Positions 10,958 through 38,111 are shown, counted from the stretch's first letter. The stretch is DNA of 48,222 nucleotides from Thermodesulfobacteriota bacterium (GCA_030017685.1 JASEHH010000014.1:1-48222), one strand, 5' to 3'. Program-made: numbers and translations. Notes: a model not told the origin generated them from the sequence alone.

Positions 10958-12292
10958 TTACTGTTTTTCTTCATAGGCTTTCCGGACCAGCTTGGCCTTG
11001 TATTCATACTTTGGTAGAGTATCAGGAGGAACCAGTTCCACATTCGCTTTGAAAATAAGCTTATCCCGGATAGTATCCTCCAGCAACTGTTTCAGTTGAC
11101 CTAAGTCACCAGGTTCTTTGCCATGCTCAAGTTTTATATGGATGGGAGGCTTCCAACCCTCGGGGGGGGGGACATACACCTGGATCTCTATGGCACCAGT
11201 CGTTCTTGGAGAGAAGCTAGCTATCGTATCCCTGACCGCTGCAGGATATACATTGACCCCCTGAACAATGATCATATCATCCGTCCTTCCAAAGACTCGG
11301 ATGCCGTATCCTGTTCGCCCGCACTCACAGCTTGTTTGGGTCACCTCTACGTGATCCCTTGTCCGGAAACGAACCAGAGGGATGCATTCCCGATCCAAAG
11401 AGGTATAGACCAGCTCTCCCCGAGTTCCATCTTTGATCTCTAAGGCTTTACCCGTATCGGGATCGATGATCTCTGGATGGACAATTTTCTGGGCAATAAA
11501 ATGCATTCCTTTCTTGTATCCGCATTCTGACCACATCTCTCCGCACATATCTCCATTTCCCATCATTTCGAGAAACAGGCATCCATAGATATCTTCCACC
11601 TTCTTGCGGACGGAGGGGATGGCAGCCCCGGGCTCGCCACCTGCCAAGATGACTTTTACGCCCAGGCTTTTCGGATCGATGCCACGTTTCTCGAGGGCCG
11701 AGGCAAAGGCCAATGGGAAGGAGGATGTGGAAAGGAAGGCATTGCAACCGATGTGCTGAAACGCTGCAATCAGGCGATCGGTGGCTCCCACCCCGATGGG
11801 AACGACGGTCCCAATCTCCTCGATGGAATCGGCATAGGAGGCCGCGATAAAAAAGGGAGAAACGACGAGAGGGACAACGCTATCATGCCGAAATCCACCT
11901 GTCCAGAAGGCCCGGCATGCCGCTTCTCGCCACACATTCAGATCGTTCTTGGTTAGTCCGATGAAGGTAGGCCTCCCCGTTGTGCCACTCGTGGAATAGA
12001 TTCGCTTGACCTTGCTCATCGAACAGGCGACGTGAGTTCCCAAAGGAGGAGAAGCAATCTGACTGTCACGCAGTTCAGACTTTTCCGTGAAGGGAAGCTT
12101 GCTTAGGTCTTCAAGATGCCGAACATCCTTCAACTGAACACCCGCCTCAGCAAATTTCTTCTGGTAGAAGACGGAATTATTCCACACATACTTCAACTGT
12201 TTTAGGAGAGCCTCTTCTTGAACATCGTGATACTTTTGTGGAGACAAGGTCTCCATCTCCTCATTCCAAAATTCTCCACGTTTCTTGGCCAT
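10958..12292 (-). CDS. Phenylacetate-CoA ligase family protein (PaaK-like)
   Basis: 444 aa, the normal size for PaaK-type AMP-forming aryl-CoA ligases. The P-loop YSTSGTTGRPT lies at about 99-109. The adenylate-forming core motif H-x-x-x-x-x-P-E is partly visible as IVHPEIIDPDTG (about 270-281). The hinge/C-terminal part has T-R-D and C-x-C-G-R-T-G-Y-G followed by GRTDDMIIVQGVNVYP, a PaaK hallmark. It would convert a carboxylic acid, ATP and CoA to an acyl-CoA, AMP and PPi in the cytoplasm. It follows hyuB after a terminator-like hairpin. Phenylacetate is not assured: PaaK relatives also activate indoleacetate and other arylacetates, and the Mo hydroxylase and HyuAB context favours a ring-opened heteroaromatic acid (inference). 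Confidence 0.85.
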   Translation of the reverse strand: MAKKRGEFWNEEMETLSPQKYHDVQEEALLKQLKYVWNNSVFYQKKFAEAGVQLKDVRHLEDLSKLPFTEKSELRDSQIASPPLGTHVACSMSKVKRIYSTSGTTGRPTFIGLTKNDLNVWREAACRAFWTGGFRHDSVVPLVVSPFFIAASYADSIEEIGTVVPIGVGATDRLIAAFQHIGCNAFLSTSSFPLAFASALEKRGIDPKSLGVKVILAGGEPGAAIPSVRKKVEDIYGCLFLEMMGNGDMCGEMWSECGYKKGMHFIAQKIVHPEIIDPDTGKALEIKDGTRGELVYTSLDRECIPLVRFRTRDHVEVTQTSCECGRTGYGIRVFGRTDDMIIVQGVNVYPAAVRDTIASFSPRTTGAIEIQVYVPPPEGWKPPIHIKLEHGKEPGDLGQLKQLLEDTIRDKLIFKANVELVPPDTLPKYEYKAKLVRKAYEEKQ

Positions 12293-12346
12293 ATTCGTTC
12301 TCCTTTTTTCTCAGCAAACGATTGATCATCGTCAGAAAAAATTGAT

Positions 12347-12377
12347 CCTCCTCCCCTTCGCGGCGAAGGGGAGGAGG
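12347..12377 (-). terminator. Strong hairpin with T-run between hyuB and the CoA-ligase gene
   Basis: A perfect 15-bp inverted repeat (left arm CCTCCTCCCCTTCGC, right arm its complement) with a one-base centre is followed on the minus strand by ATCAATTTTTT. It lies just after the hyuB stop. It is shaped like a rho-independent terminator, and would end or attenuate the hyu transcript before the ligase gene. The arms are also typical of dispersed extragenic palindromes. Confidence 0.6.
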
Positions 12378-12385
12378 CCAACTTA

Positions 12386-14344
12386 CTACCATCCCGGAGG
12401 CCGTGAAACAGTAATGTGCGGCTGGACCTCCTCAAACTTGGGCCACCACCCCGGTTTAATATTCTTTCCGATCGGATGGACCTCATGGGCATGGCGGCCT
12501 TCAGGAAGCGGGGTCTTTTCCATCTCTTTACGCAACTTCTCTGTGGCTTCAATGTCGATCCTGTAATCAAGAGCTTCCTCATCAATTTCATTGACCACAA
12601 CCCCATAGTACTTTCGTGCTGCCCCGATCGAGAGCCAGCCATCCATGACGTCTTTCAACACCAGCTCAGGGTCCCGCTCCCGGGGGTCTCCAACGCCTCC
12701 TCCTCCGCTCTGTGAGAACCAGATGTGGTCCCCCTTCTTCAACCGAATGCCGGTCGCGTACATCCCCACATCCTGCTCCTTATCCGTTCCCTTATTGACA
12801 ATCAGCTTTCCACCCCCTCCATTCGTACCGCCCGCAATGCCGAAGGGAGTGAAAACCTCGCGGTCGCCGTGAATCGTCATGATGCCATCGGCAAGGACGT
12901 CGAGCTCTCGCACAAGCGGAAACCCTCCTCTCATCCTGCCGTGACCACACCAGTCAGGCACCCCTTCATATCGCGTGTAAAGGATGGGGAACCATCTCTC
13001 TTCAAGCTCCTGAGGGATGGTCTTGGCATTGGCGAACCTCATGAAGATAAGATCTTTCCCATCTTTAAATACTCTTGCATTTTCTCCGCCGACGGAAAAT
13101 GTATATTGGACCGTATTCTTCCGGGTTCTGGGATTGTAGGAGCCGATGCACAGGTTGGTCAAGCTGCACGATCCTGGATAGACCCGCCAGGGCTGGGTGG
13201 ATGCAAGCATCCCTGACATCACCGCAATGGTTATGGATTCCACCTTGTCAAAGGCCCCTGAACAGTAACCGGTCGTTGCCGATGGATAGACCACATGGAC
13301 ACATGTTCCAGGTTTCGAAAGAATTTCCACATTCCGGGTGATCCCGCGGTTCAATGGGAAGAGGTGCGGAAAGCCAATCATGAAACCCAGACAGTTCGCC
13401 CCTACAAGGGTGCCGCGGGGACCTCCCCAGGAGCCCACAGGTGCTTTGTCAGAACCTCGCCAGTCGAAGGTGAGATGTCTCTTCTTCTTGGTCAACTTGC
13501 AATGGACGCGGATAGGTGGTTTTCCGGGTGCCATGACATCCTGGTCACCGTAATCATCAAATTCCCATTCTCCATCGGGAATTCCGTCCAGCTCCTTGAA
13601 GAGTATCCTCTCGGTATAGTTAAACTGCTCCTCAAAACCAAGCTTAACCGTTTTGTTGCCGTATTTCTCACAAAGATCTTGTATCCGTTTTTCAATGAGG
13701 GTGGCTCCCCCAAACTGTGCCTGCAAATCGCCCCGGCGTTCAACACCTCCCCGGATATTGTAATCGATAAACCTGAAAAGCTCTTCATCGAGTTTATTGT
13801 TCTCATAGAGCTTGATCGGAGGGATTCGGATTCCCTCTGCATAGCAGCTGGTTGCTTCGGGGTTAAACGTTCCAGGAAGAGGGCCGCCCATATCCGGCCA
13901 GTGGACGACGGTGCAGGCAAAGGCGACCAACTCTCCCTTGGAGAAGATGGGTTTAAAGAGGTGCGTATCGTTGACATGGGAGCCGACCTCATAGGGGTCG
14001 CTGAACATATACGCATCTCCTGGCTTCATCGATTTCAAGGAAACGTGCTTCAACAGATTGACGAGAGAATCCTCAAAGGAGCCATAGTGAGCGGCTGCGT
14101 CCGTATGACCATGGGCTACCAGACCTCCGTCGATGGTCAGGATGCCATTGGAGCGGTCCCTTCCCATCCCCACAACGGGATGGTACGCAAACTGTTCGAT
14201 GTTGGTGCTGGCCTCATAGCAGGCTGACACGAATGCATTCCTCAACACCTCAAAGGTGATGAGATCCATTTTGAGTTCTTTAATCTCTTTGATCCCTCTT
14301 TTTAATCCTGTTTTTTTCTTTCCAACGCTCTTCTTCGTAGCCAT
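12386..14344 (-). CDS. hyuB: Hydantoinase B/oxoprolinase family subunit HyuB
   Basis: 652 aa. HyuB-type subunits act with HyuA in ATP-dependent hydrolysis of cyclic amides (5-oxoproline, N-methylhydantoin, caprolactam, oxindole-type lactams), and related pairs are acetone or acetophenone carboxylases. Family marks are D-L-I-T-F-E-V-L-R-N-A (about 27-37), D-G-G-L-V-A-H-G-H-T-D-A-A-A-H (about 72-86), a D-P-Y-E-V-G-S-H-V-N-D motif and a G-G-G-G-V-G-D-P segment near the C-terminus. The N-terminus has about 25 extra lysine-rich residues before the domain. Start ATG 14344 has AGGAGG upstream, 9 bases after the hyuA stop, so the pair is co-translated. Substrate inferred to be a lactam formed by the Mo hydroxylase. 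Confidence 0.88.
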   Translation of the reverse strand: MATKKSVGKKKTGLKRGIKEIKELKMDLITFEVLRNAFVSACYEASTNIEQFAYHPVVGMGRDRSNGILTIDGGLVAHGHTDAAAHYGSFEDSLVNLLKHVSLKSMKPGDAYMFSDPYEVGSHVNDTHLFKPIFSKGELVAFACTVVHWPDMGGPLPGTFNPEATSCYAEGIRIPPIKLYENNKLDEELFRFIDYNIRGGVERRGDLQAQFGGATLIEKRIQDLCEKYGNKTVKLGFEEQFNYTERILFKELDGIPDGEWEFDDYGDQDVMAPGKPPIRVHCKLTKKKRHLTFDWRGSDKAPVGSWGGPRGTLVGANCLGFMIGFPHLFPLNRGITRNVEILSKPGTCVHVVYPSATTGYCSGAFDKVESITIAVMSGMLASTQPWRVYPGSCSLTNLCIGSYNPRTRKNTVQYTFSVGGENARVFKDGKDLIFMRFANAKTIPQELEERWFPILYTRYEGVPDWCGHGRMRGGFPLVRELDVLADGIMTIHGDREVFTPFGIAGGTNGGGGKLIVNKGTDKEQDVGMYATGIRLKKGDHIWFSQSGGGGVGDPRERDPELVLKDVMDGWLSIGAARKYYGVVVNEIDEEALDYRIDIEATEKLRKEMEKTPLPEGRHAHEVHPIGKNIKPGWWPKFEEVQPHITVSRPPGW

Positions 14345-14353
14345 ATCTTCCTC

Positions 14354-16411
14354 CTACCTTTCGACTTTGATGACAACGTTTCCATAATCGTCCACTTTAC
14401 AATGGGTCCTTGGGGGGATAACGGTCGTTGTATCCTGCTGTTCAACGATTGCCGGCCCCTTAAAAGTGGCGCCCGTGGGCAAAAGATTTCGTTCATAGAT
14501 ATCGGTTTTGACGAAACCCGCATCCTTAAACCATACCTTCCTCGGGTTCTTCATCGCATCCTTCAACTTCCCTTTGCGGAGGATCTTCGACAGCTCCGGT
14601 TTGGGGATGAGTCCAGTGGCGATCACCCTCAGATTGACCACTTCTGTCTCCACATAGCCCGGCGGGAGAGTATATCCAAATTTCTTCTGCATGGCATTCA
14701 GAAAGTTTTGTGTGATCACCTTTAAATTGGTAATCTTGCCCGGAGGAACATCAACCGTGAAGAAAGTGCTCTGGGTCCAGTACTTCACGTCGACCTGTCT
14801 TTGAATGATCATATTCTTCCTGCCCTTGATTCCTTCCCTTGTCAGGGTGTCGATCGCCCTCTGGACAACCTTATCCATCTCCTTATTGAGCTTATCGTAA
14901 TCGAGCTGGCTTTCAAGGGTGAAGATCGGTTGGACGAATTCATGACGGACATCGACCCGGCAGGCCCCGAAGGCCGAAGCATAACCCGGAAGGGGGGGCA
15001 CGATCACTGTGGAAACACCACATTCCCTGGCAATGTCACAGGCATACATGGCACCGCCTCCGCCATAGGGGATCATGGCAAAGTCTCGGGGGTCCCAACC
15101 GCGAGACACGGTCTGGAGCCTCAAGGCGAGCATCAGGTTTGTCATGGCAACCATATACATATTGGCGGCTGCTTCTTCAGGGCTCCATCCGTACACATCA
15201 CCAATCTTTTCTTTTAAGGCTTTAAAAGAGAGTTCATGGTAAACGGTCATCTCACCGCCCAGGAAATAGTCCGGATTGATCCGGCCGAGAACGATCTGTG
15301 TATCGGTGTTTGTGGCCTCCTCCCCGCCCGCGCCATAGCAGGCTGGGCCCGGCACAGATCCCTGGCTCTGGGGACCCACATTCAATATGCCGCCTTTATC
15401 GACCCATCCGATGCTTCCGCCCCCTGCTCCCATATAGACCGTATCGACCGAGGTGAGGCAGCAAGGCACATTCCAGAGGATCTTCCACTCGCGGGTCAGG
15501 GCAGGGGATCCCTTGTAGATCATCGACACATTGTTCGTGGTCCCGCCGGTTTCAAAGGCGATGACATTGTCGTAGCCAGCGAGGGCCCCGCAATACCCGG
15601 CAAAACCAACAGCCCCGGAAACGGGGGATGAATGGAATGTCCTGGCCGGAAGTTTGACGGCCTCATCCATACCAATCACACCGCCTGAACCAGTTGTCAC
15701 CAGAATGGGGCCTTTATAATTCCATTCTTTCTGGATCGTTGCGAGGAGACCTGCCATGTATTTCTTCAAAATGGGAGCTATGTAGGCATTCAATGTGGTG
15801 GTCGTCGTCCTTTCGAATTCGAGCATTTCAGGACGGACATCATAAGAGATGCTGACGTCGACACCCGGAAGTTCCTCCTGAAGGATCTCCCTCGTTCTTA
15901 TCTCATGTTCAGGATGCATGAATGAATCCATATAAACAACGGCAATGGATTCAATGCCTCTCTTCCCGCATTTTCTCGCGGCAGTCCTGACATCCTCTTC
16001 GTTGAGAGGGGTCAGGACCTCACCCCAAGGACTGACTCGCTCCCTGACGGTCAGGACATTTCTTCGCGGCACAATGATGTCGGGTGGATCCCAATCCAGC
16101 TCAAAGGCAGAGATTCGCTCCGCCCGTCCTCCTCCCAGAACATCCCGGAACCCGTGGGTCGTGATGACCGCCGTCTTCACTCCTTTTCTTTCGAGAACGG
16201 CGTTGGTTGAAACCGTGGCCCCATGTCTGAAAGAAAATGTCTCCTCTCCCAGCAAACCGGCGCGCTTGACTCCGTTGATGATCCCTTCGAAATATTCCGG
16301 AGGGGTCGTGGAAACTTTCCCGAGTCGCTGTTCACCTGTTTCCAGATTGATGCCAATAACATCGGTGAATGTCCCTCCCACGTCTGTACCGACAACCCAA
16401 TTTTTCTTCAT
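14354..16411 (-). CDS. hyuA: Hydantoinase A/oxoprolinase family subunit HyuA
   Basis: 685 aa, normal for HyuA. The N-terminal ASKHA-type nucleotide-binding motif V-G-T-D-V-G-G-T-F-T-D (about residues 7-17) and the second phosphate motif A-F-E-T-G-G-T-T-N-N (about 289-298) are intact. The segment GAGGGSIGWVDKGGIL is typical of the family. It uses ATP to phosphorylate and activate the amide for ring opening by HyuB. The start ATG 16411 has AAGGAGG upstream. It sits directly after the molybdopterin oxidoreductase gene (52-base gap), so the oxidoreductase, hyuA and hyuB are probably one transcript. I see no biotin or metal signature that would specifically point to an acetone-carboxylase role. 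Confidence 0.88.
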   Translation of the reverse strand: MKKNWVVGTDVGGTFTDVIGINLETGEQRLGKVSTTPPEYFEGIINGVKRAGLLGEETFSFRHGATVSTNAVLERKGVKTAVITTHGFRDVLGGGRAERISAFELDWDPPDIIVPRRNVLTVRERVSPWGEVLTPLNEEDVRTAARKCGKRGIESIAVVYMDSFMHPEHEIRTREILQEELPGVDVSISYDVRPEMLEFERTTTTTLNAYIAPILKKYMAGLLATIQKEWNYKGPILVTTGSGGVIGMDEAVKLPARTFHSSPVSGAVGFAGYCGALAGYDNVIAFETGGTTNNVSMIYKGSPALTREWKILWNVPCCLTSVDTVYMGAGGGSIGWVDKGGILNVGPQSQGSVPGPACYGAGGEEATNTDTQIVLGRINPDYFLGGEMTVYHELSFKALKEKIGDVYGWSPEEAAANMYMVAMTNLMLALRLQTVSRGWDPRDFAMIPYGGGGAMYACDIARECGVSTVIVPPLPGYASAFGACRVDVRHEFVQPIFTLESQLDYDKLNKEMDKVVQRAIDTLTREGIKGRKNMIIQRQVDVKYWTQSTFFTVDVPPGKITNLKVITQNFLNAMQKKFGYTLPPGYVETEVVNLRVIATGLIPKPELSKILRKGKLKDAMKNPRKVWFKDAGFVKTDIYERNLLPTGATFKGPAIVEQQDTTTVIPPRTHCKVDDYGNVVIKVER

Positions 16412-16463
16412 CTACTCTACCTCCTTTGTCGCCTTATTTTTCCATGAACACCGTCACCGATTG

Positions 16464-18530
16464 TTAGACTTTCTTGATTCTACAGGCCAGGGCCCTCAAT
16501 TCGGGGTAGCCCGTCACCGGGTCCTGAGCCTCTATATCTGTAAGCACGTTCTCATTCAACTCCTCTGCCCAACCGTGAAGGACATTGACCACCCCGGGCA
16601 TAATATCCTCTGTTGTTTTGACTTTGACCCTGATCTGTCCCTTTTTTGTCTCTACAAGGATCATGTCAGCATCGCCTATACCGTACTGAGAGGCTGTGTC
16701 CGGATGGATCTCTGCAACCGGATCAGGAGCAAGCTTCCTCAACTCAGGGATATGCCTCATCTGCCAGTGCGTGTACTCTTGAATTCTGGCACCGGTATTG
16801 AGAATGAGAGGAAACTTCTTGGCCAGTTCCGGCGACTTCACGGAGCTTCGCGTTGGCTCCTTGTAGATCGGGATCGGATCATATCCGGCATCCGCCAATG
16901 TTTGTGAATAGAGTTCAATCTTGCCTGATGGTGTTCTGACCTGATTCTTAGCCCTGATATCGTAACAGCGTTCCCCATACCAGATGCCCTCGGGGTGTTC
17001 CTCCAGGTCCTTGAGCGTAATCTTGCTTGCTTTCAGTAAGTGTTCCACCACCTCTTCATCACTGTTCCATGGAAAGTATTCGCCATATCCCATCCTTCTT
17101 CCAAGTTCTGAATAGAATTTCCAATCCGGCCACGATTCTCCCGGTGGCTCAATGATCTTCCTGTTGAGCATCACGAAGGGCATGCCACCCGTGAGCCCAT
17201 AGTTATAGGCAAGCCCGACCATTTCAAGGGATGAACAGGCAGGGAGCACGATGTGAGCAAGCTCCGCCGTCTGACTCATGAACAGGTCCATCACGACGAG
17301 CATCTCCAGTTTTGTGAAGGCCTTCTTGAGTTTCTCTGAATCGGGCCAAGAGGCAGCAGGATTTCCTCCGTTGATGATCATCGCTCTGATTGGATACGGT
17401 TTTCCGGACAGGATCACATCGGGAAGAGCCATCTGCTGTCCATAAGGGGCTGCCATATTCCAGAGGCGACGGAACAGGGGAAACTGATCCGCACCGATCG
17501 GCTCTTCCTCCACGGGGAGTCTTAAATCGGTGAGACGCATGAAGGGGTTGAAAGCCCACCCACCCGGCACATCATAGTTCCCCGTGATGGCGTGAAGGAT
17601 CGCCAGGGCCCTGCTGTTCTGAAAACCATTGATGTGTTGGTCCAGAGCATTGATGCCTTGGATGATTGAAGCTCCTTTGGCTTTTGCGAAGGTTCGGCTG
17701 ATCTCCCGGATGTCATCCGCGGAAACTCCGCATATTTCTGCCACCTTCTCGGGGAGATAGTCTTTCACATGCTCTTTCAGCTTGTCGAAGCCGAGCGTAT
17801 ATTTTTCCACGAATTCCTTGTTATAGATCCCTTCGTTGATGATGACGTTCATCGTCGCCAGAGCCAGGGCCGCATCCGTTCCTGGCCTGATCTGAATGAA
17901 TTTGCCTTTTTTTGCCAGGGGGATCCGTTTCGGGTCGATCACAATCAGTTTGAGGCCCCTGTCCAATGCCTTATAGATCCTTGCAGCGAGAGGAGGTTCT
18001 GAAGCATCCGGGTTATGACCCCAAAGAATGATGCATTCCGAGTTATCGGGATCCTCCAGGGGATATGTCCCAAAGGTCAACAATCGGGCCATGATGCGCG
18101 TACGGAAACAATGAGCCTCGATCGAAAAGTAGTTGGGCGAACCGAAAGCGCCCCGGAACCTCTGTGCGAACGCCGAGATCACGATGTTCTCTGCACCGAT
18201 GGAGCCGACTGAAAAGGCCGCCGAGTGAGCCCTGTCCTCATTCTTAATCTGTTGAAGTTTCTTAGCGATGGCATCAAGAGCCTCATCCCAGGAGATCCGA
18301 GTGAATTTGCCATTCTTCTTCATCATCGGGTGGAGGATCCGGTCAGGGGAATAGACATAGCTGGCGAGGCATTCGCCCCTCGGGCAAAGGACCCCTCGGC
18401 TAAAAGGATGCTCGGGCATGGGTTCTACCCTGGTGAGTTTCCCATCTTGGACACAGGCATTGATCCCACATACCTGAAAGCACAACATACATACAGTTTT
18501 ATGCATCGTTTCATTTGTTTGATTTGTCAC
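16464..18530 (-). CDS. Molybdopterin-dependent oxidoreductase (DMSO reductase superfamily), cytoplasmic
   Basis: 688 aa with a bis-MGD cofactor fold. The N-terminal [4Fe-4S] motif is C14-x2-C17-x3-C21-x27-C49. Molybdopterin signatures include SWDEALD (about 80-86), ILWGHNPD and GNYDVPGGW. Cys141 in the segment EAHCFRTR is a good candidate Mo/W ligand. There is no twin-arginine signal peptide, so it acts in the cytoplasm, and no partner electron-transfer subunit adjoins it. Acetylene hydratase also uses a Cys ligand, but the Asp it needs after the second cluster Cys is Phe here. The start is GTG 18530 with GGAG upstream. It lies between the OYE-GltD gene and hyuA. The reaction is unknown; oxidation, reduction or hydration of an aromatic intermediate is possible. 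Confidence 0.85.
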   Translation of the reverse strand: MTNQTNETMHKTVCMLCFQVCGINACVQDGKLTRVEPMPEHPFSRGVLCPRGECLASYVYSPDRILHPMMKKNGKFTRISWDEALDAIAKKLQQIKNEDRAHSAAFSVGSIGAENIVISAFAQRFRGAFGSPNYFSIEAHCFRTRIMARLLTFGTYPLEDPDNSECIILWGHNPDASEPPLAARIYKALDRGLKLIVIDPKRIPLAKKGKFIQIRPGTDAALALATMNVIINEGIYNKEFVEKYTLGFDKLKEHVKDYLPEKVAEICGVSADDIREISRTFAKAKGASIIQGINALDQHINGFQNSRALAILHAITGNYDVPGGWAFNPFMRLTDLRLPVEEEPIGADQFPLFRRLWNMAAPYGQQMALPDVILSGKPYPIRAMIINGGNPAASWPDSEKLKKAFTKLEMLVVMDLFMSQTAELAHIVLPACSSLEMVGLAYNYGLTGGMPFVMLNRKIIEPPGESWPDWKFYSELGRRMGYGEYFPWNSDEEVVEHLLKASKITLKDLEEHPEGIWYGERCYDIRAKNQVRTPSGKIELYSQTLADAGYDPIPIYKEPTRSSVKSPELAKKFPLILNTGARIQEYTHWQMRHIPELRKLAPDPVAEIHPDTASQYGIGDADMILVETKKGQIRVKVKTTEDIMPGVVNVLHGWAEELNENVLTDIEAQDPVTGYPELRALACRIKKV

Positions 18531-20503: not shown

Positions 20504-20506
20504 GCT

Positions 20507-21160: not shown

Positions 21161-21219
21161 CTGATTTACCTGTTCCACGTAAACAGCATATTTTCCGCCT
21201 CTGCTCTGCGCTCTGCCTC

Positions 21220-22416: not shown

Positions 22417-22499
22417 ACTCTCGTTCTCCTCTCGGTGTGTTTCTTTTCGATTTCTATTCTCTGCCCTTTCCTCTCTGCTCGAGGCCATTCTATAAAAGA

Positions 22500-28576: not shown

Positions 28577-28591
28577 GGCCCACCTTCCCCG

Positions 28592-30743: not shown

Positions 30744-30878
30744 TGTCCTACCGTGTCAACATTTCCATGAGCAAAACCTGTGCCGAAACGGTCACAAGAA
30801 GATTCCTCTGTGTTTTCAAACAAATTCCCATTTGCCCGAAAGGTTTGTTCTTATCTTCCCATGCCAAGTTGGCACAAT

Positions 30879-31163: not shown

Positions 31164-31168
31164 TTCAG

Positions 31169-31303
31169 GAATCACCAAATAGCAAGCACCCAATGGCGAA
31201 TAAGCTCCAATGAACGAAATTCCAAATGCCAGAGAAAAACGTTTCGGTCATTTGGTATCGGGGTCTGGAATCTATTTCGGATCTGTCATTTGGCATTAGG
31301 ATT
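31169..31303. repeat. Seven-base-periodic intergenic repeat, partly inverted
   Basis: On the minus strand the gap between the aldehyde oxidoreductase gene and the MoaD-like gene has 7-base units such as GCATTTG, GAATTTC, GTTCATT, GGAGCTT, ATTCGCC and ATTTGGT. The left half (AATGCCA, AATGACA) is roughly inverted to the right half, so the RNA could fold. The right edge runs close to the MoaD-like start codon. Similar arrays lie at 46461-46497 and 47986-48070. Confidence 0.5.
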
Positions 31304-31308
31304 TTGAC

Positions 31309-33231
31309 TTATGCCTTGCCAGGTTTTCTCAGCGGAGCAAGATCTTGATCAACATCCTCCAGCCCTAATTCCTTCAACTTTTGGCTCGTTGGGATGCTCG
31401 TTTCTTGATCCCATCCTCTCGCTTCGTAGTACTCATTGAGCATCTTCTCATAGATGGGGCGAAGGATTTCCCCTTTCCGTGGCCCCGCTGGCGCAGGCGT
31501 ATCGAGCATTCGCAGTGGAAGATAATCATCTTTCCTCTTTAACCCGCACCGAACGTTAAAGGCTTTTTCCACATTGTAAATTCTCTCCCCACACTGGAGC
31601 AGACGCTTCCCATCATACGGAGTCCCAGTCGCTGCGGTGAGCGCTTCAGCGATCAGATCCGGAAATTTGGAATCGGCGGCCATGAGACCTATCCATGTGA
31701 AGGCGAATTTGCAAAGGCCGAGTGAATCGAGGACTGCAGAATAGTTTTCAAACCAAGCATTCGCCTTTCCCTTGGCTTCTTCTGACTGAGGGTTCGCAGC
31801 CAACTCGGTGCCAAAAAGTTGAAGGGCTAAGTCTTTTCGACCAGATTCGTCAATGGCAGGGAAGGATTTGAGATGATCGCCACCTCGGGAAGCAGTCCCA
31901 TAGGCCAGTCCCCAGAGGAGACTACTGCGGCAGTCTCCCCAGCTGTGTCCATATCCCTTCACATCCGTGGTGAAACCTTCCGCCTCTTTCCCGAGTCTTT
32001 TTGTCAGACGATGAACACCCTCACCTAATACCTTTCCAGACCCTTCACTCCTTACTGTTTTGAAAAACATGGTTTCAATGGCATCCTGGTCTCCCCATTC
32101 CAGGGCTATCCCATCGGTTTCCTCCTTTTTCAACAGACCCCGTTGATAGGCCTCCATCGCCAGCCCAAGTGTATTTCCAAACTCCATCATGTCAATCCCA
32201 TATTGATTTGACAGATTTTGAAAGAAACAGACTGAGTTCATGTCATAATTGCCAAGGTTCGTACCAAACGCGGCGACGGCCACGAACTCAGGCTTCTCCC
32301 CTTTTTGGCCTTGATAACGTCCTTCCGTGACTTCGTGCCAGCTCGAACAATGGACTGGGCAGTTGAAGCAGGCCAAGTCTCTCACCTTCACTTTATCAAA
32401 GGCTTGCGTACTTAGCCTTGCAAAAAGATCCTCGGGGAGACCGATTTCCTGGCGGTTCTTGACGGGCAGCTTTCCATGGGCCTGATAAGAGTGCTGGATC
32501 AGCATTGTTCCATAAGCGGCAAACCGTTCGAACCCTGGGTGGCTTTTGATCGCCTTCATCATTTTTTCAACGATCTCCTCCGAGGCTTCAGGATCATTAA
32601 TCTTGACATCCTTGCTTCCGGTGACGGCAATTCCCTTCAAATTCTTAGAGGCAAAAACGGTTCCCATGCCGGTCTTTCCACAGGCCCGGTAGCGATTGAT
32701 GATCACCGTTCCGTAAAGGATGCCGTTTTCAGCGGCGGGTCCGATCAAGGCCGTCTTCAGTTCCCGGTCCCCGTGAATCTTTTTGAGCAGTTCATCGGCC
32801 TCCCACGTGCTCTTTCCCCAAAGTGGCCGTGCGTCGCGGATCTCTATCTGATCGTTGTCGATCCATAGATAGACGGGCTCTTTTGCCTTTCCCCGGATGA
32901 CCAGATGGTCATATCCGGCAAATTTCAACTCCGGCCCGAAGTCCCCTCCGGCATTGCTGTCCCCAAAAATACCGGTGACCGGAGATTTAGCGGTAATCTC
33001 AATCCTTCCCGACGACGGAACAATCGTGCCGACGAGTGGACCCACACCCAAAATCACGACTGCACTCGGATCGAGGGAGTCCATCTCCGGGGGGATGTTC
33101 TCGTATAGGAGGCGGGCGTTCACCCCGGCTCCACCAAGGTAATCCTCGTAAAGGTAATTGGGCAAGGGTTCCTTCTTGACCCTTCGTTCGGTGAGATCGA
33201 TATAGACCATGGTCCCCATGCGGCCGAACAT
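31309..33231 (-). CDS. Aldehyde:ferredoxin oxidoreductase family, tungsten type
   Basis: 640 aa. The family binds a bis-pterin tungsten centre plus one [4Fe-4S] cluster and interconverts aldehydes and acids. Cluster ligands are visible at Cys288, Cys291, Cys295 and the distal Cys507. Pterin-binding segments appear as GGAGVNAR (about 33-40), GIFGDSNAGGDFGPELKFAG (about 87-106) and ASRGGDHL (about 447-454). The ferredoxin gene lies 8 bases upstream, and the MoaD-like gene follows. Size and order fit the AorA/AorB pair of aromatic aldehyde oxidoreductases. An FAD subunit (AorC), which some of these use for NAD+ reduction, is not adjacent. Substrate likely an aromatic aldehyde or acid (inference). 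Confidence 0.9.
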   Translation of the reverse strand: MFGRMGTMVYIDLTERRVKKEPLPNYLYEDYLGGAGVNARLLYENIPPEMDSLDPSAVVILGVGPLVGTIVPSSGRIEITAKSPVTGIFGDSNAGGDFGPELKFAGYDHLVIRGKAKEPVYLWIDNDQIEIRDARPLWGKSTWEADELLKKIHGDRELKTALIGPAAENGILYGTVIINRYRACGKTGMGTVFASKNLKGIAVTGSKDVKINDPEASEEIVEKMMKAIKSHPGFERFAAYGTMLIQHSYQAHGKLPVKNRQEIGLPEDLFARLSTQAFDKVKVRDLACFNCPVHCSSWHEVTEGRYQGQKGEKPEFVAVAAFGTNLGNYDMNSVCFFQNLSNQYGIDMMEFGNTLGLAMEAYQRGLLKKEETDGIALEWGDQDAIETMFFKTVRSEGSGKVLGEGVHRLTKRLGKEAEGFTTDVKGYGHSWGDCRSSLLWGLAYGTASRGGDHLKSFPAIDESGRKDLALQLFGTELAANPQSEEAKGKANAWFENYSAVLDSLGLCKFAFTWIGLMAADSKFPDLIAEALTAATGTPYDGKRLLQCGERIYNVEKAFNVRCGLKRKDDYLPLRMLDTPAPAGPRKGEILRPIYEKMLNEYYEARGWDQETSIPTSQKLKELGLEDVDQDLAPLRKPGKA

Positions 33232-33239
33232 AAACCCTC

Positions 33240-33722
33240 CTATTTGACAGAATCAGCCATTTTCTTCGCAAATTGATATCGCTTTTCTACCTCAGTCTTT
33301 TCTACTTTTTCGTAAGAGAGAGCACCGGTTTCACAGTACTTGACGCAATACGGATCTCCTTGGCATAGGGTGCATTTGATTAATTTTTTCTCGGAGGTAA
33401 GGGTCAAAGCGCCGAACGGGCAGATATTCATGCAGAGGTTACATCCGATACATCGACGGTCATCGATGATGCGCGCCCCTGTATCCAGATCTTCCCGGAG
33501 GGCTTTAGTCGGGCAGACTTTCATGCAAGCAGCCTCGGTGCACTGTTGACAGACGGTCGGGACATTGAGCCCGAATTCTTCAAACTTGATGATACGGATC
33601 CTCGATTTGGTGGGGTTTATGAGTCTGAAGTGCTTAAAGGAACAGCGGATCTCGCAGGCCCGACACCCCGTGCATTTATTTAAATCAAACGAAAGTACTT
33701 TGTGATCCATGTTCCTGGCCAT
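33240..33722 (-). CDS. Four-cluster ferredoxin (electron-transfer subunit of the aldehyde oxidoreductase)
   Basis: 160 aa with four [4Fe-4S] motifs: C17-x2-C20-x2-C23-x3-C27, C-Q-Q-C...C-x3-C-P, C-I-G-C-N-L-C-x3-C-P and C-T-L-C...C-x3-C. This is the DmsB/HycB-like arrangement used to wire oxidoreductases. No Tat or Sec signal, so it is cytoplasmic. It lies 18 bases after livF set 3 and 8 bases before the aldehyde oxidoreductase gene. It presumably takes electrons from the tungsten subunit. Confidence 0.9.
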   Translation of the reverse strand: MARNMDHKVLSFDLNKCTGCRACEIRCSFKHFRLINPTKSRIRIIKFEEFGLNVPTVCQQCTEAACMKVCPTKALREDLDTGARIIDDRRCIGCNLCMNICPFGALTLTSEKKLIKCTLCQGDPYCVKYCETGALSYEKVEKTEVEKRYQFAKKMADSVK

Positions 33723-33740
33723 GCCTCCGCCTCCTCACCT

Positions 33741-34442
33741 TTAGAAGCCCATAAATTCGGAACTAACATTTTTCACCTCGTTCTTATTACCTTGGTAGAC
33801 AATATGCCCATTCCTAAGGACGTAGACCTTTTGGCAGATGCCCAAAGCGTGGTTGACATTCTGTTCCACCAGAAGGATGGTGGTTTGAAATTGTTCATTG
33901 ATCCTCCGAATGCTCTCAAAGACCTTATCCACATAAAGAGGAGAGAGTCCTCCGGAAGGTTCGTCAATCAGGAAGAGTTTGGGGGAAAGCATCAGTGACA
34001 TTCCGAGAGAGAGCATCTGCCGTTCTCCCCCGCTCAGCACCCCTCCCCTCAGGGTGCAACGGTTTTTCAATGCGGGAAAGAGGCTTAAAACCTTTTCAAC
34101 ATTCTCCCTCACCTTCTTGGAGTCTCGCTCCCGATGGCCGGCGACCTCCAAATTCTCCACCACGGTTAACCGTTTGAAAACCTCTCCGCCTTGGGGACAA
34201 TAGACAATCCCGTAACCGACTCTCAAGTGTGGCGGGAGATGAGTGATATCATCGCCTTCAAATTTGATTTGTCCCTTTTCTGACTCGATTAAGCCAAGGA
34301 TGGCCTTTAACAGGGTAGTCTTCCCCGCACCATTGTGACCTACCAAGGCGACCACTTCCCTGTGCGCCATGGCCATGGAGATCTGGTTCAGGACCTTTTT
34401 CTTGCCGTATGAGACTTCGACTCCGTCTAGTGTTAAGTGCAC
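33741..34442 (-). CDS. livF: Branched-chain amino acid-type ABC transporter ATPase LivF (set 3)
   Basis: 233 aa. Walker A GHNGAGKTT (about residues 34-42), signature LSGGERQM (about 138), Walker B LFLIDEPSGGL and H-loop LVEQN. The start is GTG 34442 with GGGGAGG upstream, overlapping the end of livG by 10 bases. It closes Liv set 3 and is followed after 18 bases by the ferredoxin, so transporter and catabolic genes appear to be one transcript. Substrate unknown. Confidence 0.9.
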   Translation of the reverse strand: MHLTLDGVEVSYGKKKVLNQISMAMAHREVVALVGHNGAGKTTLLKAILGLIESEKGQIKFEGDDITHLPPHLRVGYGIVYCPQGGEVFKRLTVVENLEVAGHRERDSKKVRENVEKVLSLFPALKNRCTLRGGVLSGGERQMLSLGMSLMLSPKLFLIDEPSGGLSPLYVDKVFESIRRINEQFQTTILLVEQNVNHALGICQKVYVLRNGHIVYQGNKNEVKNVSSEFMGF

Positions 34443-35245
34443 AAGACCTCCCCTTTTTTACGATTCCCAGATAGCGAAGTCCCGAGGAAGGCCTCGACCA
34501 GTTTTGGGTTTGCCTTGATGTCTTCCGGTTTTCCGTGGGCAATCCCGTGTCCTTCGACCAACAGGTGGATCTCGTCAGAGATATTCATGACGACATCCAT
34601 ATTATGCTCGACCAGGAGGATGGTCCGCCTTTGACTTTTGACCAACCGGATCATCAGATCGATAAGACGGACAATCTCCTCCCGATGTAATCCCACGGTG
34701 GGTTCATCCATGAGGAGAAGATCAGGGTTACTTGCGAGAACCCGTGCCACGCTCAGGAACCTCTGCTGGCCGTGAGATAGATCTTGGGCCAGGTCACTCC
34801 CCCGATCGGCAAGCCCTACAAACTCAAGAATCTCGATCGCTTTCTCCTTATTTTTCTTCTCCTCTTCAAAAGCTGCCTTGGTTCTAAGGAGGGCATGGTG
34901 TACCCGTTCTCCTTTTTGGCTTGGGAAGCCTATGAGAATATTCTCAAGAACAGAAAGGCGATTGAAGACGCGCGGTTCCTGAAATGTCCGGCCGATCCCG
35001 ATCCGAGCAATGGTGGTGGGGGGAAGCGCAAGGATGGACTGATTTTTGTAGTAGATCTTGCCCGAAGTGGGTTGCAGCAACCCGGTAATCAGGTTGAAAA
35101 TCGTTGTCTTACCCGCCCCATTGGGACCGATCAGGCTGGTGATCGAACATTCAGCCGCTTCCATGTAAACATTGTCGACGGCCTTAAGTCCACCAAAATA
35201 TTTCGTCAGGCCTTGAATAACTAGGACGCTCCGATTCCCACTCAT
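34433..35245 (-). CDS. livG: Branched-chain amino acid-type ABC transporter ATPase LivG (set 3)
   Basis: 270 aa. Walker A GPNGAGKTT, canonical signature LSHGQQRFLSVAR, Walker B LLLMDEPTVGL and H-loop LVEHNM. Unlike LivG of sets 1 and 2, all consensus positions are normal, so set 3 belongs to a different LivG branch. The ATG overlaps the livM stop (ATGA). The C-terminus extends past the usual AFLGT ending by about 15 residues. Cytoplasmic partner of LivF set 3. Confidence 0.9.
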   Translation of the reverse strand: MSGNRSVLVIQGLTKYFGGLKAVDNVYMEAAECSITSLIGPNGAGKTTIFNLITGLLQPTSGKIYYKNQSILALPPTTIARIGIGRTFQEPRVFNRLSVLENILIGFPSQKGERVHHALLRTKAAFEEEKKNKEKAIEILEFVGLADRGSDLAQDLSHGQQRFLSVARVLASNPDLLLMDEPTVGLHREEIVRLIDLMIRLVKSQRRTILLVEHNMDVVMNISDEIHLLVEGHGIAHGKPEDIKANPKLVEAFLGTSLSGNRKKGEVLCT

Positions 35246-36108
35246 ACCTTATATTCTCCTACGAGGCCTTGGGGACGAAAGAGCATGAAAAAGATAAGGA
35301 GAAATCCGTAAAACATTTGCTGAATGGGTGGGGCCACCTCACTCGGGATATTGAGAAACCGGAGCGCTTCAGGGAAGAGGATGAGAAGAATGGTTCCCAA
35401 GACAGAGCCCTTGAGGGACCCGCTTCCACCGATGATGACGATGGTCACGATCAAAATCGACTCCGAGAGGGAGAAACTCACCGGATGGAGGGTAGTAAAG
35501 TAGTGAGCGTGTAAGGAGCCCGCTAAGGCTGCAAACCCACTCGAGATAGCAAAGACGATGACTTTGTAGTGCACAATATTTTTTCCGAGAACCAGGGTGG
35601 CAATCTCATCCTCGCGGATCGCCTTAAGAACCCTTCCAAAAGGAGAAACCAATAGTCTATGAATGATTCCGTAAGAGGCCAAACTGATTAAACCGTAGAG
35701 GAACAGATATCCTAGATTCGAGGAGATAGATATCCCCAGGAAACTGGGGTTTGATATCCCGTAGAGGCCAAAGGGGCCTCTCGTGACCGAGACCCAGTTA
35801 TAGAGCACGCCCGAGATCATCATTTGAAACCCAAGGACGGCGAGAATGAAGTAATCTCCACCCAAACGGAGCGTCACCAGAGCTAGAACGATTCCGATCA
35901 GCATGGCCAAGAGGATGGGAATTCCGGTGGCCGCCCAAAATGAGAGCCCGAGTTTGAGACCCAGGAGAGAAGAGGCATAGGCACCGATACCAAAAAAAGC
36001 TGCCTGGGCTAAGGAGAAGAGTCCTGTAAAGCCGACGAGAATGTTGAGTGAAACAGTAAGGATAACGTAAATGCAGATCAGAATAAGAAGGTGGAAAACA
36101 TAGTCCAA
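35242..36108 (-). CDS. livM: Branched-chain amino acid-type ABC transporter permease LivM (set 3)
   Basis: 288 aa from TTG 36108. GAGGAG lies 7 bases upstream, and the start is 2 bases after the livH stop. A longer frame to 36336 overlaps livH and reads as nonsense, so it is rejected. LivM marks are G-F-T-G-L-F-S-L-A-Q-A-A-F-F-G-I-G-A-Y, the coupling segment LKAIREDEIATLVLGKN, and the end motif G-G-S-G-S-L-K-G-S. Inner-membrane partner of LivH set 3. Confidence 0.88.
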   Translation of the reverse strand: MDYVFHLLILICIYVILTVSLNILVGFTGLFSLAQAAFFGIGAYASSLLGLKLGLSFWAATGIPILLAMLIGIVLALVTLRLGGDYFILAVLGFQMMISGVLYNWVSVTRGPFGLYGISNPSFLGISISSNLGYLFLYGLISLASYGIIHRLLVSPFGRVLKAIREDEIATLVLGKNIVHYKVIVFAISSGFAALAGSLHAHYFTTLHPVSFSLSESILIVTIVIIGGSGSLKGSVLGTILLILFPEALRFLNIPSEVAPPIQQMFYGFLLIFFMLFRPQGLVGEYKV

Positions 36109-36110
36109 TG

Positions 36111-36986
36111 TTAAGCTCCTCGCGAAGCGATCATCTTCCCGAAGATCCCTTTGGGTCGGAAGACGAGGAAAAGAATGAGGAGACCGAAGGTGATTGTACC
36201 TTGCCATTGGGCTGAGATCTTGAGCACGCTCAGGTTCTGGACCAGGCCCACGAGCAGAGCCGCAACTCCAGCACCCGGGAGATAACCTACGCTCCCAATG
36301 ATGACTGCCACGGCAGCGATCAAAACGGCATCCCACCCCATGATGGGCGTAACGCCCACATCGAGACCGACAAAAATACCAGCCACTCCGGCGAGAGCAG
36401 CCCCCAAGATAGTGATGAAAAGGTAGAGGCGACGGGTCTCCAGTCCGATGATCAATGCCAACTCCGGATGATCAGAAAGCGCTCGGATCATCTTCCCCAC
36501 CCGAGTCTTTGCAAAAAGAAGGTGGAGCAACGGAAAGATGATCAGGCAACAAAGAATCACCGTCATGTGAAGCTGGGTGATCACCAACGAACCAATCTGG
36601 TAGGCCTTGAGAGGCTCTTCGGTAATCAACTTGGGGATCGCTCCAAACAAGAGGATCAGCCCATTTTCGACCACAATAAAAATTCCCAGGGAGGAAATCA
36701 GGAACGCAGCTAAGCTCACCTTTCTTTCCCTTAGAGGCCGATAACCCCGGACTTCAATAGCGATCCCGAGAAGGATAGATAGTGTAATGGCAAAAAGGAT
36801 GGCAACCGGCAAAGGAAGGTTCATCCCCTTAACAACAAAGTAGAGGGTATAACCGGATAAAGTGAAAACCGCTCCGTGAGCGAGATGGAAAATATGGGTG
36901 GAGTTGTAAATGAGAGCAAAACCTACCGCCATCAGGGCATAGATGGCGCCTGACACCACACCATTCACAATCAGTTGGAGGACCAT
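36111..36986 (-). CDS. livH: Branched-chain amino acid-type ABC transporter permease LivH (set 3)
   Basis: 291 aa. It opens with VLQLIVNGVVSGAIYALMAV and the LivH motif F-A-L-I-Y-N-S-T-H-I-F-H-L-A-H-G (about residues 23-38). The coupling segment is DHPELALIIGLE (about 172-183). Several hydrophobic helices place it in the inner membrane. It follows the set 3 binding protein after 33 bases, in the standard binding protein-H-M-G-F order. Confidence 0.9.
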   Translation of the reverse strand: MVLQLIVNGVVSGAIYALMAVGFALIYNSTHIFHLAHGAVFTLSGYTLYFVVKGMNLPLPVAILFAITLSILLGIAIEVRGYRPLRERKVSLAAFLISSLGIFIVVENGLILLFGAIPKLITEEPLKAYQIGSLVITQLHMTVILCCLIIFPLLHLLFAKTRVGKMIRALSDHPELALIIGLETRRLYLFITILGAALAGVAGIFVGLDVGVTPIMGWDAVLIAAVAVIIGSVGYLPGAGVAALLVGLVQNLSVLKISAQWQGTITFGLLILFLVFRPKGIFGKMIASRGA

Positions 36987-37019
36987 CTTTGGCTCTTGAC
37001 CTAGAAGATTTTCGTGCGC

Positions 37020-38111
37020 CTATTGGTGTTTCATGAATTTCCCGTCCTTGACCATCTTGATGATCGGAGGTTTAATCACATCCCGTTCTGGGCCGTAGGT
37101 GATCGCCCCCGTTATTCCGGGATAGTCTTTAATCTCGATCAGTGACTTTCGGATGCCTTCTGCTGTGTAGCCTCCCTTTTCGATGGCTATGGTGAGGGTA
37201 TACATGGTGTCATAGTAAAGGGCTCCCCAGATTTCACCTTCCTCGTTATACTTCGACTTGTATTTGTCCAGGAAACTCTGCTGAATATCAAGATAACCGT
37301 AAATGGCACCATTGGCGGCCGAGCCGGCTGTCTGGAGCCAGACGGGTGACTCAATGGGGTCCGCATAGAACTGGAGGTTGACCCCCGACTCAACGAGTTG
37401 TTTCATGGCAAGGCCTCCCTGTCGAGCAAAAGCGGCTATATAAATAGAATCGGGGTTAGCATTCTTTATCTTGATGATGGGGGATCGGTAATCGACCCCT
37501 TCCTCGGCAAGCATCTCCATTCCCACGACTGTTCCACCCAGTTCTTCAAAACGTTTCTTCACACCTTCGGCAATTCTCCGAGTCGACTCATTTTGGAAAA
37601 AGAGGATGCCCAGTTTTCTCTTTCCCTGCTGCTTGTAGGCAAAATCGACAACTGCCATGGCGCTCGGAACGGTGTTGATACAATTTCTAAAGCTCCATTT
37701 CGACATCTTGGCAATATCAGGATGGGTGCTGAGGGATGTGATGAAAACGGTATTCTCCTTATCCGCCACGGGGATCATCGCAAGAGCTGTTGCGGTTAAA
37801 GAACCCACGACCACTGGAACCCTATCCACGCTGATCAGCTTCTTAATCGCTGAGACGGCTGCGGTCGGAGTTCCCTTGTCATCTTCCCATATGGGAGCAA
37901 TTTTGCTTCCTTTAATGCCTCCTTTCGCATTGATCTCCTCAATCGCCAGATCAACCCCTTTCTTCATGTAAGTGCCATAGAATGCGGCTGGTCCTGTCAA
38001 ACACGATACGATGCCAATCTTAATTTCCTGGGCAGCCGAATCGTGGGGAGTGGGGAAAAGAACGAAATGGAGAAAGAAGGCACACAGAACGACTTTCATC
38101 ATCTTATCCAT
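37020..38111 (-). CDS. Periplasmic ABC solute-binding protein, LivK-like (set 3)
   Basis: 363 aa from ATG 38111. AAGGAGG lies 7-8 bases upstream; the ATG at 38153 adds only a poor N-terminus. The signal peptide is MDKMMKVVLCAFF and following hydrophobic residues, with cleavage near SAAQE. Mature Liv-class marks are I-K-I-G-I-V-S-C-L-T-G-P-A-A-F-Y-G and G-x-x-L-A-I-E-E-I-N-A-K-G-G-I. It is different in sequence from the other three binding proteins and so likely binds another ligand. As first gene of the long catabolic run it may carry the main promoter in the 327-base gap before it. Confidence 0.9.
   Translation of the reverse strand: MDKMMKVVLCAFFLHFVLFPTPHDSAAQEIKIGIVSCLTGPAAFYGTYMKKGVDLAIEEINAKGGIKGSKIAPIWEDDKGTPTAAVSAIKKLISVDRVPVVVGSLTATALAMIPVADKENTVFITSLSTHPDIAKMSKWSFRNCINTVPSAMAVVDFAYKQQGKRKLGILFFQNESTRRIAEGVKKRFEELGGTVVGMEMLAEEGVDYRSPIIKIKNANPDSIYIAAFARQGGLAMKQLVESGVNLQFYADPIESPVWLQTAGSAANGAIYGYLDIQQSFLDKYKSKYNEEGEIWGALYYDTMYTLTIAIEKGGYTAEGIRKSLIEIKDYPGITGAITYGPERDVIKPPIIKMVKDGKFMKHQ

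Follow-up and report, generated by a model that had tools for sequence, protein, structure and literature searches.

A conserved gene module of HyuAB, UbiD and a molybdenum hydroxylase in a Thermodesulfobacteriota bacterium, a candidate for the anaerobic breakdown of N-heteroaromatic acids

Little is known about the enzymes that degrade N-heteroaromatic compounds anaerobically, and a passage of a 2018 review (PMC6221969) calls the anaerobic mechanism for indole a black box. In the indoleacetate (iaa) pathway, whose gene roles are outlined in passages of PMC8360864, a figure legend shows IaaB converting indoleacetate to the CoA ester first, and the hydantoinase-type ring opener is named 2-oxoindoleacetyl-CoA lactamase in a passage of PMC5214803, while a passage of PMC8453981 speaks instead of 2-oxoindolacetate itself. 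For enzymes of this type (HyuAB), the roles of the P1, phosphate-2 (P2) and adenosine motifs of HyuA are described in passages of PMC8453981 and PMC5214803; a passage of the latter gives a two-gene layout without a gamma subunit as a criterion for hydrolases, and a table in the former lists HyuB-type lengths of 581 amino acids (aa) for CapB, 564 aa for AaHyuB of IaaCE and 684 aa for Apc-beta. Here, a stretch of 48,222 nt from a Thermodesulfobacteriota bacterium (GCA_030017685.1 JASEHH010000014.1:1-48222), called the window below, was analysed; its locus at 10958-38153 encodes HyuA, HyuB, a UbiD-family (de)carboxylase, a molybdenum (Mo) hydroxylase XdhABC and a PaaK-like acyl-CoA ligase, among other proteins.

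Only part of this locus is a conserved unit, with a core of HyuA, HyuB, UbiD, XdhABC (often with CoxG) and an acyl-CoA ligase. The chances seem about even that this core has spread horizontally as a catabolic module serving the use of an N-heteroaromatic carboxylic acid, among carriers most of which possess the anaerobic benzoyl-CoA pathway. A gene set kept in distantly related bacteria may allow the oxygen-free breakdown of a nitrogen-containing ring compound, and the module names enzymes that can be produced and assayed. The literature search, mostly without subscription papers, found no paper combining 'hydantoinase' and 'UbiD' and, among the titles and abstract openings listed, no description of this gene cluster; the enzyme families and the type of logic are known, but neither their combination here nor the HyuA subclass was found described in the literature searched. 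The original prediction for this locus had pointed to a resemblance to indoleacetate breakdown, which holds as a likeness of logic only; the order that it gave (Mo dehydrogenase, ring opening, CoA activation) differs from two of the passages above, with activation by IaaB first (PMC8360864) and a lactamase acting on the CoA ester (PMC5214803), PMC8453981 naming the free acid.

Conservation of the core genes

Searching named bacterial and archaeal genomes with HyuA turned up 24 loci in 23 other genomes, with best-segment identities of 66–82% (69–82% without one fragment); together with the genome of the window, these genomes make up the set of 24 used below. They are labelled Chloroflexi, Deltaproteobacteria, Dehalococcoidia, Rhodospirillales, Burkholderiales and other Betaproteobacteria, Dethiobacter, Thermincola, Acidobacteria and others. 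The clade is rare: of 274 genomes from the class to which G067 belongs, only G067 has it, and of the 297 genomes of the window's phylum sample only two do (its own and G600, apparently the genome of locus L024, judging from contig number, coordinates and identity). Among 58 relatives, no HyuA match exceeded 463 bits or 45% identity (own sequence, 1584 bits), and congeners have at most weak HyuA paralogues (8 of 9); similarly, no UbiD match at E 1e-100 was found in the 58 relatives, so that among 59 genomes only the own one has it. Since HyuA is 69–82% identical in several phyla while congeners have at most weak paralogues, the core appears to be a laterally spread module under constraint. In a plasmid collection, all 1006 HyuA matches and 418 UbiD matches lie below 60% identity (31–39% among the matches listed), so that no close relative of either protein was found there. 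Genome G056, of the same phylum, stands out by its numbers of HyuA matches (17) and of UbiD first-look candidates (65), both unusually high.

The partners of HyuA recur with it. UbiD orthologues (at least 65% identity) are present in 21 of the 24 genomes; in 16 of these they share a contig with HyuA, and in 5 they lie on a different one. Because of this, UbiD, which the original prediction treated as an odd addition, is instead the most consistent partner of HyuAB. XdhA (44–66%) shares a contig with HyuA in 17/24 genomes and with UbiD in a further genome (G077), and CoxG relatives (34–41%) were seen in 9 of the 23 other genomes within the regions read. HyuA, HyuB and UbiD are directly consecutive in four loci (L010, L023, L024 and L026), and in three of these (L010, L023 and L026) XdhBCA follows. 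Joint recurrence of HyuAB, UbiD and XdhABC in other phyla exceeds chance. It was also found that the pairwise distances of HyuA, HyuB, UbiD and XdhA correlate in 13 genomes plus the window (r 0.66–0.93, six values), with 0/2000 permutations reaching any of these values. As a weak control, 20 loci of HyuA paralogues, only 3.6–5.1 kb long, contain no UbiD or XdhA match. The Mo hydroxylase, HyuAB and CoA ligase of the original prediction form a conserved unit, and gene order, whose complete lack of conservation had been named as an argument against a single pathway, is conserved, as in the four consecutive loci.

The genes annotated between 10958 and 38153 all lie on one strand, as had been predicted; it is the minus strand, and the features of this locus described below are on it. 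HyuA (14354..16411; Pfam Hydantoinase_A, Hydant_A_N) is the ATP-binding subunit, and its P2 motif is changed. ETGGTTNN is found in 23/23 clade sequences (in the window ETGGTTNNV at residues 287-295, codons 15527..15553) and DMGGT in 20/20 paralogues, and the P2 Asp is kept in the five PDB relatives compared, which include acetone carboxylase twice, a sixth listed relative lying outside the comparison. The P1 motif DxGGTFTD is kept in 22/23 clade sequences, the remaining one being truncated, and the adenosine motif GxxPGP in 23/23. The lactamase (Hyd) motif set of P1 DxGGTxxD, P2 D[VM]GGT and GxxPGP is therefore incomplete, with ETGGT at P2 throughout the clade. The layout is that of the hydrolases: HyuA and HyuB (12386..14344, 652 aa; Pfam Hydantoinase_B) are separated by 9 bp, and no gamma subunit was found among the 39 Pfam-scanned open reading frames (ORFs), out of 84 of at least 100 aa in the window, the remaining 45 mostly overlapping scanned genes. 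Because it is a two-gene unit without gamma, the HyuAB of the module looks hydrolase-like. The scores to the CapA and CapB models are 444 and 224 bits (cut-off 1000), and 15 of 19 HyuB ORFs in the clade are 633–671 aa long, the rest being cut or of uncertain start. This HyuAB subclass could use phosphoryl-transfer chemistry unlike that of the known lactamases, and AFETGGTTNN in HyuA (23/23) offers an invariant mark for finding further carriers.

UbiD (29098..30504; Pfam UbiD) has its N-terminal, middle and C-terminal Pfam domains all above cut-off and scores 315 bits with TIGR00148 (cut-off 245). A UbiX-type flavoprotein is encoded in L007 and has three clustered relatives elsewhere. The Mo hydroxylase consists of the FAD subunit XdhB (27710..28576; Pfam FAD_binding_5), the 2Fe-2S subunit XdhC (27229..27690; Pfam Fer2_2) and the Mo catalytic subunit XdhA (24902..27214; Pfam MoCoBD_1, MoCoBD_2), next to the CoxG-like protein (28592..29044; Pfam COXG, E 6e-21). 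The PaaK-like ligase (10958..12292; TIGR02155 225 bits, cut-off 646; Pfam AMP-binding_C_2) has counterparts of 42% or more (43–81%) in six other genomes (7/24 with the window). FadD-like ligases form a cluster with members in 10 further genomes, a single member having been assigned by profile, so that a CoA ligase of either type was seen in 17/24. A thiolase (21220..22593; TIGR01930 188 bits, cut-off 241; Pfam) has a 58% match in L004; because the family match begins at about residue 74, its true start is probably downstream of the annotated one.

Proposed route and alternative explanations

The model TIGR03200, for the ring-opening hydrolase of the benzoyl-CoA pathway, is above cut-off in 19/24 HyuA-clade genomes and in 0/14 named controls, which ties the trait to benzoyl-CoA-pathway organisms. 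In the background samples it is above cut-off in 9/274 genomes of the class of G067 and in 65/297 of the window's phylum (Fisher p = 5e-19 and 2e-8, respectively; the background counts include G067, the own genome and G600). For the clade genomes grouped as Proteobacteria by record title, the figures are 14/16 against 8/273 with G067 removed. Near the TIGR03200 gene in a Rhodospirillaceae and a Burkholderiales metagenome genome (L070 and L071), the BcrB (811 bits, cut-off 487) and BcrA (701 bits, cut-off 578) models score above cut-off, and these genes together with the BamA-type gene point to an anaerobic aromatic pathway there. We infer that the module feeds the benzoyl-CoA pathway.

The reading as an N-heteroaromatic acid module is preferred because it gives every core enzyme a job. 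UbiD, with prenylated flavin mononucleotide (prFMN) from a UbiX, would take off a ring carboxylate, and the Mo hydroxylase would put a water-derived oxygen beside the ring nitrogen, with electrons perhaps leaving through CoxG. HyuAB would phosphorylate the lactam carbonyl with ATP and then hydrolyse the C-N bond, the ligase would form a CoA thioester, although it may act earlier, as IaaB does, and the thiolase and further steps could lead to an aryl-CoA such as 2-aminobenzoyl-CoA. An NCS1-type permease in L023 is counted in favour of this reading. Candidate benzo-fused substrates are an indole carboxylate via oxindole and kynurenate or a quinoline carboxylate via 2-quinolone. A narrower proposal can be offered tentatively, as possible but doubtful: bacteria of several phyla would share an anaerobic route, so far undescribed, by which benzo-fused N-heteroaromatic acids (kynurenate or the carboxylates of quinoline or indole) are degraded, in which UbiD clears the carbon next to nitrogen, the Mo hydroxylase oxidises it, the ETGGT-type HyuAB opens the ring, and the aryl-CoA enters the benzoyl-CoA pathway.

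Gene content, conservation, co-occurrence, the changed HyuA motif and the sigma-54-like sites are observed, while each reaction, the order of the steps and the substrate are deduced from these. Several points weigh against the N-heteroaromatic acid reading. The changed P2 motif could mean that HyuAB catalyses a reaction other than lactam hydrolysis, and HyuB, at 652 aa, is longer than CapB and AaHyuB and nearer to Apc-beta. The UbiD clade profile scores 270 bits with HmfF and 261 bits with E. coli-type UbiD, about equal distances that favour neither as a guide to its substrate. A UbiD orthologue is missing in 3/24 genomes (G059, G060 and G078, with 36–40% matches only), and no XdhA was seen in the regions read of six genomes, that of L024 included. 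Five of the 24 genomes are below the TIGR03200 cut-off (G061 at 362 bits; G060, G065, G076 and G079 at 57–107 bits); the 24 genomes, found through HyuA and spanning phyla, are not independent, and the background is not matched to them. The BamA link may just mark aromatic-degrading anaerobes, and the distance correlations of the four core proteins are confounded by shared species descent. In addition, G067 and G062 carry separate HBCR-like (4-hydroxybenzoyl-CoA reductase-like) XdhAB sets at about 10 and 16 kb from HyuA, respectively, which also fits a phenol-type route or a mixed aromatic island.

Among the alternatives, a phenol- or aniline-type route survives best, although it is unlikely. 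HyuAB would phosphorylate the substrate with ATP, UbiD would carboxylate it, the ligase would form the CoA ester, and the xanthine dehydrogenase-family enzyme would act as an HBCR-like dehydroxylase yielding benzoyl-CoA. The top NCBIfam model of XdhA is the alpha subunit of HBCR (642 bits, under the cut-off of 995). The co-occurrence with the benzoyl-CoA pathway, the changed ATP motif of HyuA and the four-Cys HBCR-like XdhAB sets on the HyuA contig in G067 and G062 agree with such a route as well. The beta subunit of HBCR carries a four-Cys insertion that forms a 4Fe-4S site. The XdhB of the window (288 aa, three scattered Cys) lacks this insertion and scores 118 bits with HBCR beta versus 242 bits with the beta subunit of glyceraldehyde dehydrogenase. 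The spaced four-Cys pattern is found in only 2 of 20 XdhB-like ORFs (L052_16 and L060_05), the other 18, that of the window included, being without it; its detection in two copies indicates that the test is capable of finding it. Both copies belong to separate XdhA/XdhB sets (L052:16871-19775 and L060:5851-9756), which are likely 4-hydroxybenzoyl-CoA reductases. Because the XdhB of the module lacks the insertion, its XdhABC is more likely an oxidative hydroxylase than an HBCR-type reductase, and the HBCR assignment is unsupported by both this absence and the score under the cut-off. UbiD likewise scores only 183 bits (beta) and 140 bits (alpha) with the phenylphosphate carboxylase models, against the 315 bits with the general one. 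In favour of the phenol-type route, a passage of PMC4959651 reports that one marine Dehalococcoidia cell has hydantoinase genes, a putative 4-HBCR and an enzyme resembling phenylphosphate carboxylase, although it draws no link between them.

Next in rank, and also improbable, is a generic catabolic island in which transfer has gathered genes of separate aromatic pathways that form no single one. The gene content outside the core varies widely among loci, and the window has three LivKHMGF transporter sets as well as its own aldehyde:ferredoxin oxidoreductase (AOR), nitrohydrolase-like and molybdoprotein genes. A hairpin between HyuB and PaaK and the extra XdhA copies near HyuA in G067 and G062 would fit an island too. 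Against it, the same core occurs in several phyla with correlated divergence, and HyuA, HyuB and UbiD keep their consecutive order in four loci.

A ketone carboxylase of the acetophenone type ranks third and has a low probability. HyuAB would carboxylate a methyl ketone, the ligase would form a beta-ketoacyl-CoA, and the thiolase would cleave it; the apc genes of Aromatoleum form one operon with a benzoylacetate-CoA ligase according to a passage of PMC5214803, thiolases are encoded close to HyuAB in the window as well as in L003, L004 and L019, and the length of HyuB is close to that of Apc-beta. However, neither a gamma (four-Cys) nor an alpha-prime subunit was found among the 39 scanned ORFs, HyuA scores 418 bits with N-methylhydantoinase versus 304 bits with the best Apc subunit, and UbiD and XdhABC would be left unexplained. 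The known iaa pathway or a close form of it is very improbable: a hydantoinase-like ring opener with a PaaK-like ligase and the iaa operons predicted in sulfate reducers (a passage of PMC8360864) recall it, but the scanned ORFs contain no acyl-CoA dehydrogenase (IaaF), mutase (IaaGH) or CoA transferase (IaaL), HyuB has 652 aa against the 564 aa tabulated for AaHyuB (PMC8453981), and the passages on the indoleacetate pathway leave UbiD unmentioned.

Locus layout, accessory genes and transcription signals

As transcribed, the locus begins with LivK_d, an ABC substrate-binding protein (37020..38153; Pfam Peripla_BP_6; ATG at 38111, alternative TTG at 38153), followed by LivH, LivM, LivG and LivF of a branched-chain-amino-acid-type importer (33741..36986; Pfam/NCBIfam), a PadI-like 4Fe-4S ferredoxin, which is a putative electron carrier (33240..33722; top NCBIfam model PadI, 92 bits, cut-off 700; 47% match in L024), AOR (31309..33231; Pfam AFOR_N, AFOR_C), a ThiS-family protein (30879..31193; Pfam ThiS, E 1.8e-9), UbiD, CoxG, XdhB, XdhC and XdhA. 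After XdhA come a hydrolase of the guanidino-group-modifying family (23763..24797), a second substrate-binding protein, LivK_c (22500..23714; Pfam), the thiolase, an old yellow enzyme (OYE) domain with a GltD-like domain (18563..21379), a dimethyl sulfoxide (DMSO)-reductase-family molybdopterin protein of 688 aa (16464..18530; Pfam Molybdopterin), HyuA, HyuB and the PaaK-like ligase. Two more LivKHMGF sets lie downstream of the ligase, one of them at 5677..10353 on the minus strand, giving three in the window by Pfam. A 77% direct repeat of 87 nt (4408-4494 and 22794-22880) within two LivK genes is a sign of related binding-protein copies, of which the window has four. Upstream of the locus are an NtrC-type sigma-54 activator and a PAS histidine kinase (39316..43145; Pfam), also on the minus strand, and a flavin reductase-like ORF; no tRNA and no Rfam family above threshold were found in the window. 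The enzyme classes named in the original prediction (PaaK-like ligase, HyuB, HyuA, thiolase, XdhABC, UbiD and AOR) were recovered along with the LivKHMGF transporter, and the DMSO-reductase-family protein, CoxG, the ThiS-like protein and the PadI-like ferredoxin are additions to it.

The AOR, the nitrohydrolase-like protein, the OYE-GltD pair and the DMSO-reductase-family protein look accessory. Among 24 loci, HyuAB has an AOR relative (35%) as a neighbour in L024 alone and an OYE relative (44%) in L003 alone, and other AORs of the 24 genomes are at most 41% identical to that of the window among the matches listed. The original prediction had placed the enzymes that it named in one candidate (hetero)aromatic pathway, with UbiD, AOR, OYE and an amidinohydrolase-like protein as additions beyond indoleacetate logic; the conserved unit of hydroxylase, HyuAB and ligase upholds part of this and UbiD belongs to the core, while AOR, OYE and the amidinohydrolase-like protein fall outside it. 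The AOR that it listed is assigned to the true AOR type by 386 bits to PDB 9mqx (an AOR) versus 196 bits to BamB, and a class II benzoyl-CoA reductase (BamB) was rejected on these scores. The predicted OYE-GltD fusion is not intact, its one reading frame being cut by an in-frame TAA at 20509-20507; the OYE of L003 (44% over 212 residues) has no stop at the corresponding position. The stop may mark a true pseudogene or a split gene, or stem from an assembly error, and selenocysteine or pyrrolysine is ruled out by the codon being TAA.

For the protein at 23763..24797, taken earlier to be amidinohydrolase-like, the nearest PDB entry is the 2-nitroimidazole nitrohydrolase NnhA (9azg; 139 bits, residues 4-342), whereas arginine deiminases reach about 21 bits, so the arginine deiminase assignment was replaced. 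According to a passage of PMC11659421, Cys357, Asp262, Asn311, His260 and Glu197 of the nitrohydrolase are needed or catalytic, and Cys352 is replaceable. In a phmmer alignment judged by eye, allowing a 7-residue numbering offset, the equivalents of the first five are kept, and that of Cys352 is Gly. Such a gene is present in 1/24 HyuA-clade genomes (the own one) and in 3/297 of the phylum sample (the own and relatives at 39% and 32%), and the neighbours of the relatives (L079 and L080) have no core gene in common with the window.

The nearest PDB entry of the protein at 16464..18530 is acetylene hydratase (304 bits), and a 37% relative also stands directly before HyuA in L007 (L007:7780-9870, Dethiobacter). 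Formate dehydrogenases have Sec or Cys followed by His at the Mo/W ligand, and acetylene hydratase has Asp13 after the second cluster Cys. Both assignments were rejected: the ligand region is Cys-Phe here and in the L007 relative, and the Asp13 position is Phe in the window and His in the relative. Beside HyuAB in a Rhodospirillaceae genome, L014 encodes, at L014:4527-5492 and L014:15688-17737, a reductive-dehalogenase/QueG-like protein, a luciferase-like oxidoreductase and a protein of 334 aa that matches no NCBIfam model at 1e-10.

Six sigma-54-type sites with at most one mismatch lie in the window, all on the coding strand, where 0.93 are expected and 0/100 shuffles reach six. The site at 38149..38164 (one mismatch to TGGCACNNNNNTTGCW, -24/-12 type) ends 37 bp before the LivK_d ATG, that at 30770..30785 (one mismatch) lies 265 bp before UbiD, and that at 10545..10560 lies 191 bp before LivK_a of the second LivKHMGF set; a perfect site at 45495-45510 lies 399 bp before a LysM/transglycosylase gene (43395-45095), and the remaining two are inside genes. 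In L024, where an NtrC/kinase pair beside HyuAB matches that of the window at 55% and 45%, a perfect site lies about 330 bp before HyuA, a second perfect one is also present, and a mismatched one falls inside NtrC. Of the other loci among the eight scanned, L003, L005, L019 and L046 lack such sites, while L004, L007 and L023 each carry a single mismatched one, which lies inside a gene except in L004. The NtrC/sigma-54 system probably controls the module in the window; because several of the eight loci lack intergenic sites, such control is not general. Intergenic gaps agree in part with the short gaps or overlaps predicted, 12 of the 14 measured being 8–104 bp and the other two 115 and 374 bp, the longest before UbiD. 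Since this 374-bp gap contains a sigma-54-like site and a hairpin lies between HyuB and PaaK (12347..12377), the locus is probably not a single transcript. The hairpin (14-bp stem) is terminator-like by consensus match alone, and such sites show no excess in that region (21 versus 21.2 in shuffles); scans for sigma-70-like promoters did not outperform shuffled sequence either (19 versus 15.0; 5 versus 9.1).

Comparison with described systems

The accessory nitrohydrolase-like protein resembles NnhA in its score and in five conserved catalytic-residue equivalents, and differs from it in the Gly at Cys352. For UbiD, the nearest solved relative is the furan-2,5-dicarboxylate (FDCA)/pyrrole-2-carboxylate enzyme HmfF, which we take to be PDB 6h6x. 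His296 and Arg304, presumably functional residues of HmfF, align with Ser307 and Ser315, which are invariant in 17 clade sequences (65–82%), and a decarboxylase of the HmfF furan/pyrrole type is therefore unsupported. HBCR (446 bits) and nicotinate dehydrogenase (301 and 224 bits over two subunits), of the xanthine dehydrogenase family, are the nearest solved relatives of XdhA in the PDB; compared with HBCR, the module has no four-Cys insertion in XdhB, and XdhA is below the curated HBCR cut-off.

CapAB, N-methylhydantoinase and 5-oxoprolinase share with HyuAB the two-subunit ASKHA-type lactam hydrolase design and the P1 and adenosine motifs; here, P2 is changed from DxGGT to ETGGT, the next Asp is Asn throughout the clade, and HyuB is longer. 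The module has in common with the iaa system of Aromatoleum aromaticum (IaaCE lactamase, IaaB ligase) an ATP-dependent, hydantoinase-type opening of an N-heterocycle and a CoA ligase, directed toward benzoyl-CoA-type metabolism. Judged by its gene content, the module is distinct from the indoleacetate operon: IaaF, IaaGH and IaaL are absent from the scanned ORFs, HyuB is longer, and UbiD is a core partner.

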